44,489 bases of DNA from a virus: IMG/VR virus record IMGVR_UViG_3300005732_000014, positions 1 to 44,489 of that record. One strand, written 5' to 3'. The position numbers and the translations under genes are program-made. Below, one piece after another: positions 6,186-33,557 of the stretch; positions within the stretch are counted from its first letter, which is position 1; each line of letters opens with the position of its first letter. Under the pieces are notes generated by a model, which saw nothing but the letters and a program-made list of their open reading frames with translations, ran no database searches and was not told the DNA's origin.

Positions 6186-6312
6186 GTGCAACGGATGCGG
6201 GAAACCGATTAACCCGCCACCTATCCTACCTAACCCTGCAACATTCAAATGCCCCACCTGCAAGATGCAGTATACGCAGACCATCACGCGGACAATAACC
6301 ACGAAGGGTTGA
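6172..6312 (+). CDS. Small zinc-ribbon protein (GTG start)
   Basis: A 46-residue frame starting at GTG 6172 inside the end of the endonuclease VII gene: VGPFKCNGCGKP, a proline-rich linker, FKCPTCKMQYTQT, then a Thr-rich tail. Two CxxC pairs about 20 residues apart make a classic zinc ribbon. Phages use such small proteins as nucleic-acid or RNA-polymerase binders, but the role here is unknown. The stop at 6312 is two bases before the RNA polymerase start, so the two are probably co-translated. The CxxC pairs are what make a real gene likely despite its size. Confidence 0.72.
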   Translation: MGPFKCNGCGKPINPPPILPNPATFKCPTCKMQYTQTITRTITTKG

Positions 6313-6314
6313 AC

Positions 6315-8726
6315 ATGAGCACTATCCAAGACCAGATCGAGAAAGAGAAGCACATGATTGCTCGCGGGGCTGCAAAGTACCGTCATAGCGAACAGTCGGC
6401 CAGGGACGGGGGCCGCACACACGAGACGACCTACGCAACCCAGCTCACACGCTCCTTTCTACCGGATCTGGTCTTGGCCATACAGGCCGCTGGAGAGGCG
6501 TCAGGGCGTGCTACCACGCTAGGTAAGTACCGTGGCCTACTACGGCGCATAGACGCGGACAAAGCTGCCCTACTGGCCCTGCGCGCGGTGTTCCAAGACG
6601 TATTCACAGAACGTACTGTGATTGCACTGGCTAAGGTAGTAGGACTGATGATCGAAGACGAGATCAAGTTCACGGCGTTTCAGGACGACCACGAGGAATA
6701 CTACAACGCGATCATCAAGGATTTCAAGAGAAAGAACACAAACCAGTACAGGCACCGGCACCGGGTTCTGACGCACAAGATGCACGAGAAGGAGGTGGCG
6801 TGGGAGGCATGGACACCGACGGAGAGGATGCAGGTCGGTATGCTGGTATTGGAGTGCATACTGGCGGCTACCCCGCTGATCGAGAAGAAGTTGATCAGAT
6901 CCGGCAGGAAAACACAGTACGTAATCGTGCTCACGAAGGAGGCTAGCGACTGGATAGAGAAGCATAAAGACCACATGTCACTCCTGGCGCCGGAATTCAT
7001 GCCATCTATCATCGAACCGGATCCATGGACAGCTCTGGATATCGGAGGTTACTACACACCCGGTGTGCGCCGTCGCGTGCCGATGGTTAAGACGAGGGAC
7101 AGTACTCATGCAGAACTCCTACGATCCACCGATCTATCTACACCAATGGCAGCGCTCAATGCTGTCCAGCGTACTCCGTGGCGCGTCAATGCGCGCGTGC
7201 ATCTTGTTGCCAAGGAGGTTTGGAAAAAGGGCCTCCGTATTGGAATGGGTTCGCCAGACCCAATCGAAATCCCACCTTCGCCGGTGGCCAACATCAAGAA
7301 AGAAGCAATGGACGCTGGACAAGTTGAGGCGTTCACAGCATGGAAGCGCGACGCCGCAAGACTGCACACGCTCGAACGGGAGCGGGTCACGAGCAATTTC
7401 CAGGCTGTACGGATCATGCGTATGGCCGAAGACTACAGCCAATACGACCGATTTTGGTATGTCCAGCAATACGATTTCCGTAGCCGGATGTACTCTATCA
7501 CCTCTGCATTTTCGCCACAAGGTCCCGACATGGGAAAAGCGCTCATTGAATTCGCGGACGGTAAGATCCTAGGCGAGCGGGGGTTCTATCACCTAAAAGT
7601 CCACTTTGCAAATCTCTGTGGCTATGATAAAGAGGAGTTTGACGACCGTGCAGATTACACAGATACTAGACGGGAAGCTATTTTGGCCTGTGCGGAAGAT
7701 CCGCTCGGCGAAGCAAAGCATCTATGGGTGGATGCTGACAAGCAGTATTGTGCTCTTGCAGCCATCTTTGAACTCGCCGACGCGTACACTTTCGGCCCTG
7801 ACGCAGTTCTTAATCGCATTGCCATTGCTCGTGATGGTTCTTGTAATGGATTGCAGCATTATGCTGCTATTCTGCGCGATCCTGTCGGTGCCGCTGCTAC
7901 TAATGTTAGTCGTGCTGTCGGTCGCGTGGTTGCTGACATCTACACAGAGGTTGGCGAAGCAGCTGGTCGTCGTATCGTGGCTGCAGGTGGCGAAACCTCG
8001 TGGATGGCGTACGCAGCTGGCCTACCTCGTAAGCTGGCGAAAAAGCCTGTAATGACCCTACCGTACGGAGCTACAAAGCGGGCGTGCGTAGACAGCGTGC
8101 TCGACTGGCTGTCGGATTTAAACAGCGAGGAGTTCCCACCGACATCGCGCATGACGGACGCGCAGTACTGCACAGAGCACCTATGGGAGGCTATCGGCGA
8201 CGTTGTGATATCTGCCCGCATTGGTATGGATTGGGTGCAGAAGGTAGCTTCCGACCTAGCGAAGGCTGGGAAGCCAATGACCTGGACTACACCCACTGGG
8301 TTCGTTGTACATCAGGCACGGCACAAGATCAAGACCAAGCGGATCAGGACGCAGCTAGGCGGCGCGATGAGCCTACAGATTGGTGAATTCACCGACGAGT
8401 TGGATAGCAGGAAACAGTCAGCAGGATCTGCCCCGAACTTCATACACTCGTATGATGCTGCACACATGCAGCTGACCATCATGCGTATGCCGCAGGATAC
8501 GGATTTCGCCATGATCCACGACAGCTTTGGGACCTATGCCTGCGACACTGACAAACTCGACGTAGCTATCCGCGAGGCGTTCGTAGATCTGTACCACGGA
8601 TGGGACGCGCTAGGTGCGTTCAAGCAGGAGCAGGAAGACCGTACGGGTGTTAAGCTCAGAGACACGCCGCCGATGGGGTCGTTCGACGTACGCGTTGTGC
8701 GAGACAGCCCATACTTTTTTGGATGA
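6315..8726 (+). CDS. Single-subunit DNA-directed RNA polymerase (T7 gp1-like)
   Basis: The phage RNA polymerase, 803 residues from ATG 6315 (MSTIQDQIEKEK); T7 has 883. Catalytic residues are in place: palm Asp507 in RDGSCNGLQHYAA, Lys576 and Tyr584 in KKPVMTLPYGATK, and Asp736 in IHDSFGTYA. The C-terminus SPYFFG recalls the aromatic foot of T7 polymerase. It should read the GTGACACTACTATAGGATA promoters of this phage. Position after the exonuclease and directly before the virion block is the phiKMV-type arrangement, not that of T7. The frame is open up to 6249, but that part overlaps the zinc-ribbon gene and lacks an RBS. Codon use shifts to T-ending codons at about 7590-7980. Confidence 0.98.
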   Translation: MSTIQDQIEKEKHMIARGAAKYRHSEQSARDGGRTHETTYATQLTRSFLPDLVLAIQAAGEASGRATTLGKYRGLLRRIDADKAALLALRAVFQDVFTERTVIALAKVVGLMIEDEIKFTAFQDDHEEYYNAIIKDFKRKNTNQYRHRHRVLTHKMHEKEVAWEAWTPTERMQVGMLVLECILAATPLIEKKLIRSGRKTQYVIVLTKEASDWIEKHKDHMSLLAPEFMPSIIEPDPWTALDIGGYYTPGVRRRVPMVKTRDSTHAELLRSTDLSTPMAALNAVQRTPWRVNARVHLVAKEVWKKGLRIGMGSPDPIEIPPSPVANIKKEAMDAGQVEAFTAWKRDAARLHTLERERVTSNFQAVRIMRMAEDYSQYDRFWYVQQYDFRSRMYSITSAFSPQGPDMGKALIEFADGKILGERGFYHLKVHFANLCGYDKEEFDDRADYTDTRREAILACAEDPLGEAKHLWVDADKQYCALAAIFELADAYTFGPDAVLNRIAIARDGSCNGLQHYAAILRDPVGAAATNVSRAVGRVVADIYTEVGEAAGRRIVAAGGETSWMAYAAGLPRKLAKKPVMTLPYGATKRACVDSVLDWLSDLNSEEFPPTSRMTDAQYCTEHLWEAIGDVVISARIGMDWVQKVASDLAKAGKPMTWTTPTGFVVHQARHKIKTKRIRTQLGGAMSLQIGEFTDELDSRKQSAGSAPNFIHSYDAAHMQLTIMRMPQDTDFAMIHDSFGTYACDTDKLDVAIREAFVDLYHGWDALGAFKQEQEDRTGVKLRDTPPMGSFDVRVVRDSPYFFG

Positions 8727-26690: not shown

Positions 26691-28511
26691 ATGGCTTTTA
26701 AAAGAGAAAGTACCGAGCAGGCGTTAGCACGCTGGGAAACACTCAAAGAGGTTCAGCTGGCCTATCCGACATTCACACCGTTCCTAGAGGACTGTATGGA
26801 GTACCTGGGTTTCAAGTGCTCCTGGGTCCAGAAGGATATCGGGCACTATCTAGAGCATGGTCCGCTGTATCGGATGATCCAGGCGCAGCGCGGGCAGGCC
26901 AAGACGACTATCACTGCGATCTACGCTGTGTGGCGGCTTATACACGACCCTACGACCAGGATCGTAATCTTGTCTGCTGGCGAGAACATGGCCTCTCAGA
27001 TTAGCACCTTGATCATCCAACTGATCGCAGGTATAGATTTCCTAGAGGTGTTGCGACCCGATAGAGCAGCTGGTGACCGGGCATCCCGCGAGAACTACGA
27101 CGTACACTACAGCCTAAAAGGCCCAGATAAGTCGCCCAGTATCGCGTGCTTCGGTGCAACGTCTACTGTCCAGGGTTCGCGTGCCGATCTGCTCATTGCG
27201 GACGACATTGAGAGCTACAAGAACAGCAGGACGCCTGTGCAGCGGGAAGTCCTCACAGACATCACCCGCGACTTCACATCCATCTGCTCTACCGGCGATA
27301 TCATTTACCTCGGTACACCTCAGTCGGTTGACAGCATCTACAACGCCCTACCTTCCCGTGGGTACGATATCCGCATCTGGACCGGGCGCTTCCCAACTAA
27401 AGAAGAAATCCCGAACTACAACGGGTTCCTGGCGCCGCGCATCATGCAGATCGTAAAGGCGCGACCTGAACTGCAGACTGGTGGTGGTCCAATGGGCGAC
27501 CGTGGCCAAGCAATCGACAGCGTCATCGTCCCAGAGGATAAGATGGTCGCCAAGGAGATCGACCAGGGCCCAGCGTTCTTCCAGCTACAGCACATGCTGG
27601 ACACTGCGCTCATGGACGCCGGTCGTTACCCGCTTAATCCTGGGAAGATCTTCTTCGCGGACCTCCGAGACAGCACCAAGGCACCTCTTGACATGCAGCT
27701 GTACCGGGATCGCAAGATGTTGATCCCTGTACCTGCGCAGTTCCCAATCCAGCTCGACTACCACCTAGTTCCACACATGGGCACAGAGTTCGGGAAATAC
27801 AGCCAGACCTACATGTACGTTGACCCGGCGGGCGGCGGGCAGAATGGCGATGAAACCGCATACGCAATCGTTCGCGAAGCAGCGGGTAAAATCTTCGTAG
27901 TGAAGGTCGGCGCAGTTCCCGGCGGTCTCGGAGAGAAGCCTCTAAAGACCCTGGTAGACATCGCCATACGCTTCGGCGTGGACAACATGGGTATCGAAGA
28001 GAACTTCGGTAAGGGTGCCCTTAGCAGCGTACTTACGCCGCTGCTGCATAAGGCGACAGAGGAGCACCGCCGTACGCCCATCGGGATAGAGGACATCTGG
28101 GAGACCGGTCAGAAGGAGCTCAGGATCATCGACATCCTGGAACCAGTGATCGAGAACGGGCGCCTGATCATGGACGAGCAGGTTATCGAGGACGACTGGG
28201 AAGAATGCCAGAAATATGCTGTGCAGGACCGTCCAGTATTCAGCCTGTTCTATCAAATGGCTCGGATCACTCGCGACCGCAACTGCCTGATCCACGATGA
28301 CCGCTTGGATGCACTAGCATCCGCTGTTAGATACTTCGTACTAGCACTGCAGAAAGACAAGGACAAGGCCCTGAACAAAGCAAAGCAGGACGCCTACAAT
28401 CAGATGGTGCGCAACCCCCTTGGTATGCCATCAGCACACGCTAACTCGGCAACACTGCCGGGACAGAAGACAGAAAACACCTTCCACAACATGATCACAA
28501 GGAGATTTTGA
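26691..28511 (+). CDS. Large terminase subunit (T7 gp19-like)
   Basis: 606 residues (T7 gp19 has 586). The ATPase half has a Walker A-like QAQRGQAKTT near residues 63-72 and a Walker B RADLLIADDIES. The nuclease half shows MYVDPAGGGQNGDETAYAIV, IGIEENFGKGA and HDDRLDALASAVRYF with acidic metal ligands. It packages DNA through the portal and cuts concatemers. It stands directly after the small subunit and has RBS TAGGAGGCCAGT. Confidence 0.97.
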   Translation: MAFKRESTEQALARWETLKEVQLAYPTFTPFLEDCMEYLGFKCSWVQKDIGHYLEHGPLYRMIQAQRGQAKTTITAIYAVWRLIHDPTTRIVILSAGENMASQISTLIIQLIAGIDFLEVLRPDRAAGDRASRENYDVHYSLKGPDKSPSIACFGATSTVQGSRADLLIADDIESYKNSRTPVQREVLTDITRDFTSICSTGDIIYLGTPQSVDSIYNALPSRGYDIRIWTGRFPTKEEIPNYNGFLAPRIMQIVKARPELQTGGGPMGDRGQAIDSVIVPEDKMVAKEIDQGPAFFQLQHMLDTALMDAGRYPLNPGKIFFADLRDSTKAPLDMQLYRDRKMLIPVPAQFPIQLDYHLVPHMGTEFGKYSQTYMYVDPAGGGQNGDETAYAIVREAAGKIFVVKVGAVPGGLGEKPLKTLVDIAIRFGVDNMGIEENFGKGALSSVLTPLLHKATEEHRRTPIGIEDIWETGQKELRIIDILEPVIENGRLIMDEQVIEDDWEECQKYAVQDRPVFSLFYQMARITRDRNCLIHDDRLDALASAVRYFVLALQKDKDKALNKAKQDAYNQMVRNPLGMPSAHANSATLPGQKTENTFHNMITRRF

Positions 28512-30728: not shown

Positions 30729-31001
30729 GTGGCTACTACTTCCATCATCACAAAGACGTCCGTTGTCCCTGACGGTGTCTACTCGCAGCTACCCGTGTAT
30801 CCGAACACCACCCTGGTGATCTACGCGGTCGAGGCGGACATCCGGGTTGTCTGTGGACAGCCTGATCTAGCATCTGCCTCCGACGCGAACTCGTTCCTGC
30901 TCCCGGCAGGTTCGGCCTTGGATATGACACCGGCGCCCAAAGGCCCAGTGTTCGTGAAGACCACCACTCCAGGCGCCACCGCCTCGTACTGGTGGTCCTG
31001 A
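30729..31001 (+). CDS. Small beta-rich protein, possibly tail-associated (GTG start)
   Basis: 90 residues from GTG 30729 (AAGGAGCTAAACA before it). Mostly short strands: VYSQLPVYPNTTLVIYAVEA, DIRVVCGQPDL, PVFVKTTTPGATASYWWS. There is no signal or membrane span. It follows the receptor-binding-type gene by 11 bases and ends the late block, so a decoration or tail-tip role is possible. No family is recognised. Confidence 0.75.
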   Translation: MATTSIITKTSVVPDGVYSQLPVYPNTTLVIYAVEADIRVVCGQPDLASASDANSFLLPAGSALDMTPAPKGPVFVKTTTPGATASYWWS

Positions 31002-31031
31002 CACCGCGCACTAATCGCGTATAACACCGCT

Positions 31032-31073
31032 CTCAGCGCCTCTGTAGCCATCTAGGCTATGGTTGGTGCTGAG
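31032..31073. terminator. Long hairpin at the end of the late gene block
   Basis: CTCAGCGCC (31032-31040) pairs with GGTGCTGAG (31065-31073, one G-U pair). Inside it TAGCC (31045-31049) pairs with GGCTA (31055-31059). The 14 base pairs lie 31 bases after the last late gene. No U-run follows on either strand, so whether it terminates the phage polymerase or marks an RNA processing point is open. It can also fold in a transcript of the minus strand arriving from the 31594 promoter. Confidence 0.6.
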
Positions 31074-31237
31074 GCACCTCTACATGCGCTCAGAACGGCG
31101 TATATCAAGCCTGCGAGTACAAAACAGATAGATCCTCTGACTACCTGCCTGGGTTATCGACCCGGTATGAAAAATGAAATATTTTCGCGAGGGGGCATCT
31201 ATACAAACTAGCTTCCCGATTTCCCCCATAGGGCCTC

Positions 31238-31266
31238 TTGACAATCAGCATGTGTGAGCCTATTCG
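31238..31266 (+). promoter_or_regulatory. Possible host sigma70 promoter for early genes
   Basis: TTGACA (31238-31243), 17 bases, then TATTCG (31261-31266). The -35 box is perfect and the -10 box weak (three or four matches). It is upstream of the putative RNA and the accessory genes, where a T7-like phage needs host promoters. The stretch 31074-31237 before it shows no gene. Confidence 0.4.
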
Positions 31267-31409
31267 CGCGCGCGTGTGCGCTTTCTATCTATCATCATGG
31301 TAGGCAGGGGGCAGGGTGCATGGCATGGCCTGTGGTCAAGCTGAGCATACAGCCTATGGTATCTAGGAATGGTCGCACGGTCGTTCGCTCTGCTCACTGT
31401 GCTCCACAT

Positions 31410-31514
31410 TCATTCTCTTGCTCGTGGGCTATCTATATCTTTTGTCTTATGGTCTGTATGTTGGTCATCATCATCTATATTCATCATCCTATATGTATGC
31501 TTGGCTATGGTCAT
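31410..31514 (-). CDS. Possible antisense small ORF (34 aa)
   Basis: On the minus strand, about 70 bases after the start of the 31594 promoter, an ATG (31514) opens 34 codons: MTIAKHTYRMMNIDDDDQHT at the N-terminus, then a hydrophilic tail with KTKDID and a stop at 31410. AGGAAC lies about 10 bases upstream. The minus strand is purine-rich here, as coding strands of this phage are. It is short and without known family, so it may also be only part of an antisense RNA. Confidence 0.35.
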   Translation of the reverse strand: MTIAKHTYRMMNIDDDDQHTDHKTKDIDSPRARE

Positions 31515-31575
31515 AGCTCTTGTTCCTCATCACCTGTCGGAACGCTTTGCTTGAAACTGATACTGAGAGCGTATC

Positions 31576-31594
31576 TGTCCTATAGTAGTGTCAC
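31576..31594 (-). promoter_or_regulatory. Phage RNA polymerase promoter on the minus strand
   Basis: Read on the minus strand the bases are GTGACACTACTATAGGACA: the first 17 match the 9139 and 12729 promoters exactly. It is the only copy in this orientation. It would start a transcript near 31580 running leftwards through 31.0-31.58 kb, antisense to any host-driven early transcript. A role in replication initiation, as T7 promoters have, is another possibility. Confidence 0.85.
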
Positions 31595-31604
31595 ATATAG
31601 GTCA

Positions 31605-31679
31605 GAGTAGGTAATAGCTCTATAAATATCCTTATAGTTCATAGGCTTATAAGAAATACGGCTATCTATGTCATTTTTA
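31605..31679. other. AT-rich stretch between reverse promoter and ornate RNA
   Basis: About 75 bases unusually rich in A and T for this genome, with repeated TATAA/TTATA words (TATAAATATCCTTATAG). I see no gene and no clear -35/-10 pair. Beside a phage promoter, such a stretch could be an origin-unwinding site; this is inference. Confidence 0.35.
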
Positions 31680-32498
31680 GGCTTGCAAGCCGGACTGTAA
31701 TGCTTAGATTGGTTGTCAGAGGGCAGCACGGTTCGCTGGGCGGTCCTCTAGAATTCCAGACGGTACAGAGCGCAAGCCCTATCGTCGGGTGAGGGGCTAG
31801 CCCTAGGTGAACTAGCTGGTTAAGCGGGGAATTGAATGCCGCTCGTTATCGCCTGTAAGGGTGCATGGGACAGGTTGGAGAAATCCACAAAGGCTGTATT
31901 GCGTACCTTATCCCAGACTAAATCGCCGGGGATTAGCCTGGATGGGTAAGTGCTGCTAGCCCAATGAAGCAACGCAGCGCGGGAAACCGTACGGCAGATA
32001 AGGGTTGACACCTTGGACCCACTAGCGCAAGGTAACATAGCAAGTCAGAGGCAGAACGGGTAGGCCACGGCCCTTGATCCAAGTAACCGCTGAGGATGCA
32101 AGCCACAGGCAGCAAGCTAGAGCCTGAACGAAATAAACGGTTGACACTCTGGGCCGGGAAGAGCAGAGTAAAGACAGACTAACCGGGATACACACCGGGT
32201 CAATCGCAAGGCGCGTCGGGGCATGGCAGGACAAAGCCATGTAAACTCTGAGGTAATCTGCGAGTGTCAGACAAGAGTGTACAGCCCTTGAACGTGGGCA
32301 ACATCAAGGCGCGTGTGCGTCGCCGGGTAACCGGTCTCAGAGTGACAGGATCGACACTGTCCATAGCAACTGAGTGGATGTATCTGTAAGGCGGTGTGAA
32401 GCCCGTTAGGATGCATTTGGTGTTAATCTAGCCTCTGGATAGAGGACATAAAGCGCCGGTGATTGACCGGGTAATCGGGTTGCGGGCGCTTTACTAAT
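31680..32498 (+). ncRNA. Putative large ornate structured noncoding RNA (~0.8 kb)
   Basis: Over 800 bases without a credible frame on either strand, but with many local helices: GGCTTGCAAGCC (31680); AGAGG/CCTCT (31718/31745) enclosing CAGC/GCTG; AGCGG/CCGCT (31823/31839); CCTGT/ACAGG (31852/31870); TGGA-GAAA-TCCA (31876); CTTATCC/GGGTAAG (31907/31944); CGG-GAAA-CCG (31980); ACCTTG/CAAGGT (32010/32028); CAGGC/GCCTG (32106/32122); CGGTT/AACCG (32138/32181) enclosing ACTCTG/CAGAGT (32146/32164); CATGGC/GCCATG (32222/32236); CCGG-GTAA-CCGG (32323); CTCAG/CTGAG (32336/32370) enclosing GACAG/CTGTC; CCTCT/AGAGG (32432/32441); and a closing TAAAGCGCC/GGCGCTTTA (32449/32485). GNRA loops and purine-rich joints are typical of large folded RNAs. 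Size, phage origin and gene-free place recall GOLLD and ROOL RNAs; I cannot assign a family. It may be the leader of the early transcript. Confidence 0.75.
32449..32493 (+). other. 3' closing hairpin of the structured RNA
   Basis: TAAAGCGCC (32449-32457) pairs with GGCGCTTTA (32485-32493). Inside, GGT pairs with ACC around GATTG. It is followed by CTAATCTATCCC and the RBS of the next gene, so it closes the RNA domain just before the first accessory gene. There is no U-run of terminator type. Confidence 0.6.
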
Positions 32499-32521
32499 CT
32501 ATCCCACGAAAGGACAAAGAA

Positions 32522-32836
32522 ATGACCTTCGGATTTATCACTGGTGCAGCGTGCGCCACCGTTGCCGCTGTACTCGTAACCGGCCACCGCGTGGTTGGCA
32601 TCAAGACAATCGTAAAGCACGCAACCATCGTAGACGTTGCTTTCACTGTGGCGATGGCTGTGGCCTTCGCTGGGACCATCACGGGTCTTATGGTTGCGAT
32701 CATGGCCGGGCTGGTAATGGCACTGTTCCTTAGCGCTCTTGGCTGGGCACAGGACAAGATGAGTAAGACTGCCAATTCCGACAGTGAATTCGATGCAGAT
32801 GGTAACTGGATCTACAATCAGGCGCCGTACGTATGA
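32522..32836 (+). CDS. Small membrane protein with about three spans
   Basis: 104 residues. Hydrophobic segments at about 3-20 (FGFITGAACATVAAVLVTG), 36-54 (VDVAFTVAMAVAFAGTI) and 55-73 (TGLMVAIMAGLVMALFLS), then a hydrophilic tail with WAQDKMSK and ending NWIYNQAPYV. It is the first gene after the structured RNA, with RBS GAAAGGACAAAGAA. It could be a holin, an early host-takeover or an exclusion protein; nothing in the sequence decides this. It overlaps the next start as ATGA. Confidence 0.8.
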   Translation: MTFGFITGAACATVAAVLVTGHRVVGIKTIVKHATIVDVAFTVAMAVAFAGTITGLMVAIMAGLVMALFLSALGWAQDKMSKTANSDSEFDADGNWIYNQAPYV

Positions 32837-33026: not shown

Positions 33027-33557
33027 ATGACAAAGAAACCAACCAAGGCCGCCGTAGCCCGTTCACTCGAAAACCTCAAGGCTGAGATGGCCCTTGCAGT
33101 CGAGAGCGCCAATACCATGCGGGAGCGCGTACAGCACGCTCTGGTGGGCTGTGTGAGCCACTGGGCTATGACAGGTAGCAACGAGGGCCTGAGCGACCTT
33201 GTGAACCTCTTTATCGAGCAGCTGGGCCAGGGTGTGAACCTCAAGGCTGTCAAGGCATGGTGTGAGAAGCACCTACATATGCAGGAAGACGCCGAGGGCA
33301 AGAAGCTGCTGTTCAAGCCTGTCAAGTCCACAGACCTTGACACGAAGGCCGCTGCCAACGAGAAGTGGTGGTCTCTCAAGCCGCAGACTGTGTTCTCATT
33401 CGACATTGCCTCTGCGATCATCTCACTTGCAAAGAAGGCCGCGAAGGCGAGCGAGGAGCAGACAAAAGATCCCGATGCTGACGTCAAGCTGGATGACGCC
33501 CTCATGGAACAGCTGGCACAGCTGGGCAAGGTGGCCGAACAGGTCCAGAAGGCGTGA
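33027..33557 (+). CDS. Unknown helical protein (176 aa)
   Basis: 176 residues, two bases after the previous stop. Helical, with a charged N-terminal part (RSLENLKAEMALAVESANTM), a central CVSHWAMTGSNEGLSDLVNL, a basic VKAWCEKHLHM, and a C-terminal acidic coil (DALMEQLAQLGKVAEQVQ). No enzyme motif, signal or span is visible. It belongs to the accessory run after the structured RNA. Confidence 0.78.
   Translation: MTKKPTKAAVARSLENLKAEMALAVESANTMRERVQHALVGCVSHWAMTGSNEGLSDLVNLFIEQLGQGVNLKAVKAWCEKHLHMQEDAEGKKLLFKPVKSTDLDTKAAANEKWWSLKPQTVFSFDIASAIISLAKKAAKASEEQTKDPDADVKLDDALMEQLAQLGKVAEQVQKA

Follow-up and report, generated by a model that had tools for sequence, protein, structure and literature searches.

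A probable modular, structured leader RNA in the gene-free left end of T7-like phages

Few viruses are understood as well as the T7-like phages, and their early takeover of the host is ascribed to small proteins. The T7 early leader is cut before the first gene at the RNase III site R0.3; this leader is short, and we know of no conserved large fold in it. The HK022 put RNA and EAR are about 70-120 nt each and act on the polymerase in cis for terminator readthrough. The large phage RNA GOLLD assembles into a multimeric nanocage. Its genes lie close to tRNA islands and its level increases at lysis; ROOL too is found near tRNA islands, in phages and prophages (PMC12286853). Here we describe a locus that seems to give T7-like phages a structured RNA, so far overlooked, at the outset of infection: in related phages, paired mutations keep its helices intact.

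The whole stretch of DNA that was analysed, called the window here (44,489 nt), is a complete or near-complete 44.5 kb genome of a T7-like phage, with DNA polymerase, head and tail genes present. By their DNA polymerase, RNA polymerase, structural and terminase proteins, its closest named relatives are mostly Autographiviridae that infect Rhizobium, Agrobacterium and Paracoccus, and the marine phage MedPE-SWcel-C56 (L001) is also among them; a search with the window's own early protein returned no relatives. The last late gene ends at 31001 and the first early ORF starts at 32522. There is no credible gene between them, and the ORFs inside this gene-free stretch match no PHROG or Pfam family, in agreement with the initial annotation, which had seen no credible gene in 31680-32498. 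The limits that it drew are also nearly exact, as 31680 lies 3 nt before the -35 box of a promoter and 32498 lies just past the last stem before the Shine-Dalgarno of the first gene. A BLASTN search against plasmids gave no match. The features discussed below are collected in Table 1.

Table 1. Features of the window, with the evidence for each or remarks on it
Feature	Position	Strand	Evidence or remark
Single-subunit RNA polymerase	6249-8726		
Terminase	26691-28511		named via tblastn matches
Conserved terminal element, 73 bp	31166..31238	+	nhmmer profile matches in about 55 relatives, downstream of terminase
TTATAAGAAATA box upstream of promoter P1	31647..31658	+	common to relatives' leaders
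Sigma70-like promoter P1, TTGCAA-16-TAGATT	31683..31710	+	profile match, 29 bits
Probable structured leader RNA, about 785 nt	31716..32500	+	synteny, covariation, no ORF family match
Core domain shared with MedPE-SWcel-C56 (L001)	31750..31920	+	82% identity, 173 columns
Hairpin AGGG/CCCU	31792..31804	+	GGUG/CACC in L001; two double compensatory changes
Hairpin AGCGG/CCGCU	31823..31843	+	loop nearly identical in L001
UGGGA/UCCCA and AGGU/ACCU stems around hairpin UGGA-GAAA-UCCA (31876-31887)	31866..31916	+	
Pseudoknot A, GGGTTGACACCTTGGACCCACTAGCGCAAGGT	32002..32033	+	stems GGGUU/GACCC and ACCUUG/CAAGGU, loop ACUAGCG; 11/11 pairs
Module B, hairpin AGGC/GCCU and pseudoknot B	32101..32176	+	matches L001 1218-1290, BLASTN E 1e-6
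Pseudoknot B, CGGTTGACACTCTGGGCCGGGAAGAGCAGAGT	32138..32169	+	stems CGGUU/GGCCG and ACUCUG/CAGAGU, loop GGAAGAG; same H-type plan
AUCUGUAAGGCG, resembling the conserved AUCUGUAAGUCGC loop of the Paracoccus-phage RNA	32382..32393	+	short BLAST and nhmmer, E 4.8, weak
Terminal stem preceding the first gene, UAAAGCGCC/GGGCGCUUUA	32449..32493	+	14 bp; shuffles reach this length too
First early ORF, 104 aa	32522..32836	+	
Early gene, phrog_1448 family	33027..33557	+	comes after the leader in most relatives

Several elements place this stretch at the left end of the genome. In phage Paso (L013), the terminal element falls on the start of the terminal repeat predicted by PhageTerm; we therefore take the element to mark the left end of the genome, and we infer that the direct terminal repeat of the window phage starts at about 31207. 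Elements of this type (GGGGG...CCCCC) could help to locate termini in permuted contigs. A profile of the promoter module matches over 20 leader sequences, near-duplicates among them, and transcription from P1 is predicted to start at about 31716. Two to four tandem TTGACA-17-TATAAT-like promoters occur in the leader region of the AT-rich relatives L066 and L050. A gene-free stretch is retained at the same place in about 40 Autographiviridae relatives, mostly phages of Alphaproteobacteria: their first gene begins 0.9-2 kb past the terminal element, their leaders are about 530-1300 nt long, and in most of them the first gene, or one of the early genes, is of phrog_1448 type. The Caulobacter phage Lullwater follows the same plan, with a 196-bp repeat and then no gene until 1551. 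The window shares the whole syntenic arrangement, that is, the terminal element, the conserved promoter, the gene-free stretch and the early genes including one of phrog_1448 type. The view that T7-like genomes rarely spend so much of their length on such DNA thus does not hold in this clade, in which gene-free left ends as large as this one are the rule.

The abundance of local helices had first drawn attention to the stretch, but does not amount to evidence by itself. For the plus strand, the minimum free energy is -285.8 kcal/mol, whereas shuffles average -273.2 (z -1.77), and 1 of 20 shuffles was as good; the folding energy of the full leader alone barely beats chance and is uninformative. 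Three hairpins with GNRA loops are present where they had been reported (TGGA-GAAA-TCCA at 31876-31887, CGG-GAAA-CCG at 31980-31989 and CCGG-GTAA-CCGG at 32323-32334), but the loops are not conserved, as L001 keeps the stem at 31876 and loses its GAAA loop. At the level of sequence comparison, what exceeds chance is covariation with relatives and not folding energy.

MedPE-SWcel-C56 is the one true homologue known for the window's core, and searches of IMG/VR with DNA patterns from the core recovered only this phage; five other matches of the first core pattern, which lie in coding DNA and look like chance, were set aside. The RNA polymerases of the two phages share 39% of their residues, and 57 of 58 bases at 31808-31865 are identical, leaving one difference. 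RNAalifold predicts 44 pairs in the core, four of which show a compensatory double change; the mean for shuffled columns is 1.0, and four were reached in 6 of 300 shuffles. The loop GCUAG of the hairpin at 31792-31804 can pair with CUAGC at 31812-31816. The hairpin at 31823-31843 is neutral evidence because its stem is invariant, and RNAalifold favours a competing register over it. In the stems of 31866-31916, double changes from U-A to A-U and from G-C to A-U are seen, and one outer pair breaks. All 15 pairs of module B are kept in both phages, four of them via a double change, which brings the core and module B to eight double compensatory changes in total, each two-sequence test being weak (p about 0.02-0.05). 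The modules have changed order: module B follows the core on its 3′ side in the window but is placed directly 5′ of it in L001. Together with the pseudoknots described next, this covariation evidence bears on 31750-31920, 32002-32033 and 32101-32176 of the leader; no aligned homologue exists for 31921-32001, 32034-32100 and 32177-32448.

A recurring H-type pseudoknot provides a further line of evidence. Its plan consists of a 5-bp stem 1, the sequence GAC, a 6-bp stem 2 joined with no spacer, and a 7-nt crossing loop. We found six perfectly paired copies; the window and L001 contain two apiece, L029 and L031 (there with a 6-nt loop) a single one, and every copy is on the plus strand and inside a leader. 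None of 407 TTGACA sites elsewhere fits the plan; by chance, about 4 in 10,000 would. Among five copies, with those from one genome counted as related sequences, 100% of cells are paired and 11 cells carry double changes, compared with 4.0 for shuffled data, and none of 500 shuffles did as well; both stems show covariation. The signal is lost when the partners are slid, a control that is somewhat flattering because the plan was derived from the same copies. These copies also correct the earlier reading of this part, in which CGGTT paired with AACCG (32181) around ACTCTG/CAGAGT: across five copies CGGTT pairs instead with GGCCG in the hairpin loop, and we dropped the nested arrangement since it is not conserved in the other copies.

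As a caveat, TTGACA in the pseudoknot doubles as a -35 box and may therefore reflect an overlap with tandem promoters. Genuine tandem promoters seem to be present in other leaders. In L001 and L029, a -10-like hexamer (TAnnnT) follows 17 nt on; the window's pseudoknots match a -10 box poorly at this place (CAAGGT, CAGAGT). The stretch might accordingly be read as a DNA element, made up of tandem host promoters and of packaging and entry signals, in which folding is incidental. The terminal element and P1 do resemble DNA signals, TTGACA is enriched in leaders (21 of 33, with 5.5 expected), and some of these sites are perfect promoters (L050, L066). However, DNA sites bound by proteins would not be expected to change in pairs with complementarity maintained, covariation is seen in each stem of the pseudoknot, and covarying positions span hundreds of nucleotides, with the stronger signal on the plus strand. 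We consider the DNA reading improbable. A promoter does not explain the pairing within the pseudoknot, and a double role is possible.

Paired changes also occur in leaders outside the window's immediate relatives. For the Paracoccus-type set (L002, L015, L035, L106, L107 and L110, in which the rows of L035, L106 and L107 are near-identical), a domain with 92% of cells paired has 12 pairs with a double change against 4.1 in shuffles (0 of 500 as many), and RNAalifold gives z -7.2 with 15 compensatory pairs. Four further subgroups (L011/L013, L061/L099, L077/L083 and L056/L059/L072/L090) reach z -7 to -14 and 11-19 compensatory pairs against 3-4, and in these the plus strand always beats the minus strand. 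In the Caulobacter phages Lullwater and Quill_5.2, two overlapping segments have 11 and 10 compensatory pairs against 1.7 and 3.2. The first gene served as a control; its z is near 0 in two subgroups, and in Lullwater/Quill_5.2 it has no excess of compensatory pairs. The covariation test thus came out in favour of the initial proposal of a large structured RNA in the gene-free part of this T7-like phage, both for the window's relatives and for six other subgroups, and we regard it as very likely that 31716-32500 is a functional structured RNA. That the stretch is instead decaying or low-constraint spacer DNA with meaningless helices would fit an MFE z of only -1.8, but it hardly accords with the near identity of 31808-31865 between phages of such distant polymerases or with compensatory changes in seven subgroups, and appears very improbable.

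How these leaders are related is less uniform. Covariance models of two subgroups (R1 and R2) matched no other subgroup, which leaves place and promoter as the grounds for homology between subgroups. The shared place, promoter and polarity, and in part the pseudoknot, argue for a common origin with very fast sequence change; strict homology across all subgroups is at most putative. We speak of a syntenic class and not of one tight family because the sequence diverges fast and modules change order. The leaders of L010 and L117 (Atu_ph02/Atu_ph03) are 96-100% identical over most of their length (about 700 nt) and 70% identical beside the first gene. Type II hammerhead ribozymes lie on the plus strand of two relatives, above the Rfam gathering score (L031:15023-15085 and L044:11002-11065), in the early region downstream of the leader; none was found in the window.

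What such an RNA might do can be considered from its position. About 10 of 28 leaders carry a nearly perfect stem of 19-26 bp that ends 13-42 nt before the first gene, which is rare in shuffles. By analogy with T7, stems of this kind suggest cleavage by RNase III. The window's own stem, at 14 bp, is unremarkable. In L061, L099, L012 and L075, the 3′ arms of the long stems share a GYAUUCU-like sequence and a mid-helix mismatch; this sequence is perhaps a processing signal. We propose that host RNA polymerase would transcribe the leader first, from the left end of the genome on entry, and that the transcript would fold into a modular structured RNA. RNase III-type cleavage at the stem just before the first gene would then free it from the early mRNA, and the freed RNA could bind a host component in a way that favours the phage. 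Its size, modularity and turnover favour an RNA with a target of its own. We put forward this mechanism, an RNA acting in trans early in infection after release by RNase III, tentatively, as somewhat short of an even chance.

A cis-acting leader is nearly as likely: the folded RNA would remain on the early mRNA and control the early operon, by making host polymerase resistant to terminators (as do the HK022 put RNA and EAR), by protecting the mRNA against degradation or by adjusting how well the first gene is translated. Its constant attachment to the early operon favours such a role, as the leader is always directly upstream of this operon, whose first gene has a good Shine-Dalgarno; we found no clear intrinsic terminator between the leader and the first gene, and the modules recur, like antitermination sites. 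On the other hand, 530-1300 nt far exceeds the sizes known for put or EAR, and several relatives have long RNase III-like stems ahead of the gene, which points to release. Rfam gave no match to a leader element: a search of the relatives' leaders gave no relevant match, and no put/EAR-type match was found in the window or the relatives, with the reservation that put may have no model in the library. Taken as a whole, the account of 31716-32500 as a modular leader RNA with a presumed early trans-acting role is our best explanation, and we think it rather more probable than not. The leader RNA is directly testable because cultured members infect the laboratory strain Caulobacter crescentus CB15. 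Whether these leaders constitute a new class, of large, fast-evolving modular RNAs that are the first product of host polymerase and act in trans in T7-like phages of Alphaproteobacteria, is a more speculative suggestion than the mechanism itself. We found no report of this leader RNA in the open-licence literature, and text searches of papers on Agrobacterium T7-like phages, alphaproteobacterial phages, cobaviruses and LUZ100 found no such leader described.

The initial annotation had raised GOLLD and ROOL as candidates, and membership in a known large phage RNA class would fit the similar size, the phage setting and the several pseudoknots. The search with covariance models did not support this: with Rfam 15, neither the window at the gathering threshold nor 31000-32550 at up to E 10 gave a match to GOLLD, ROOL, HEARO or OLE. 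Two weak snoRNA-like matches in the relaxed search of 31000-32550 were rejected as chance. There is no tRNA in the whole window, and the locus is at the early left end and not beside a lysis gene, which makes this identity extremely unlikely. The leader is like GOLLD in being phage-borne, in the GOLLD-like scale (>800 nt there) and in being modular with a variable and a conserved part (PMC12286853); it differs in lacking a tRNA, in its left-end early position and in having no covariance-model match. With ROOL it has in common that both are large phage RNAs with several pseudoknots (PMC12286853), and it differs in having neither a covariance-model match nor a tRNA island. Like put and EAR, it is a structured RNA at the start of an operon, but leaders here are 530-1300 nt and do not match those elements. 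It resembles the T7 early leader in being the presumed first transcript of host polymerase, from the left end of the genome, and, should RNase III act as proposed, in being severed ahead of the first gene. A covarying RNA of 0.5-1.3 kb that is transcribed first in a whole branch of T7-like phages would add an RNA player to host takeover, and a class of this kind acting in trans would, if true, be the RNA counterpart of T7's early host-takeover proteins.
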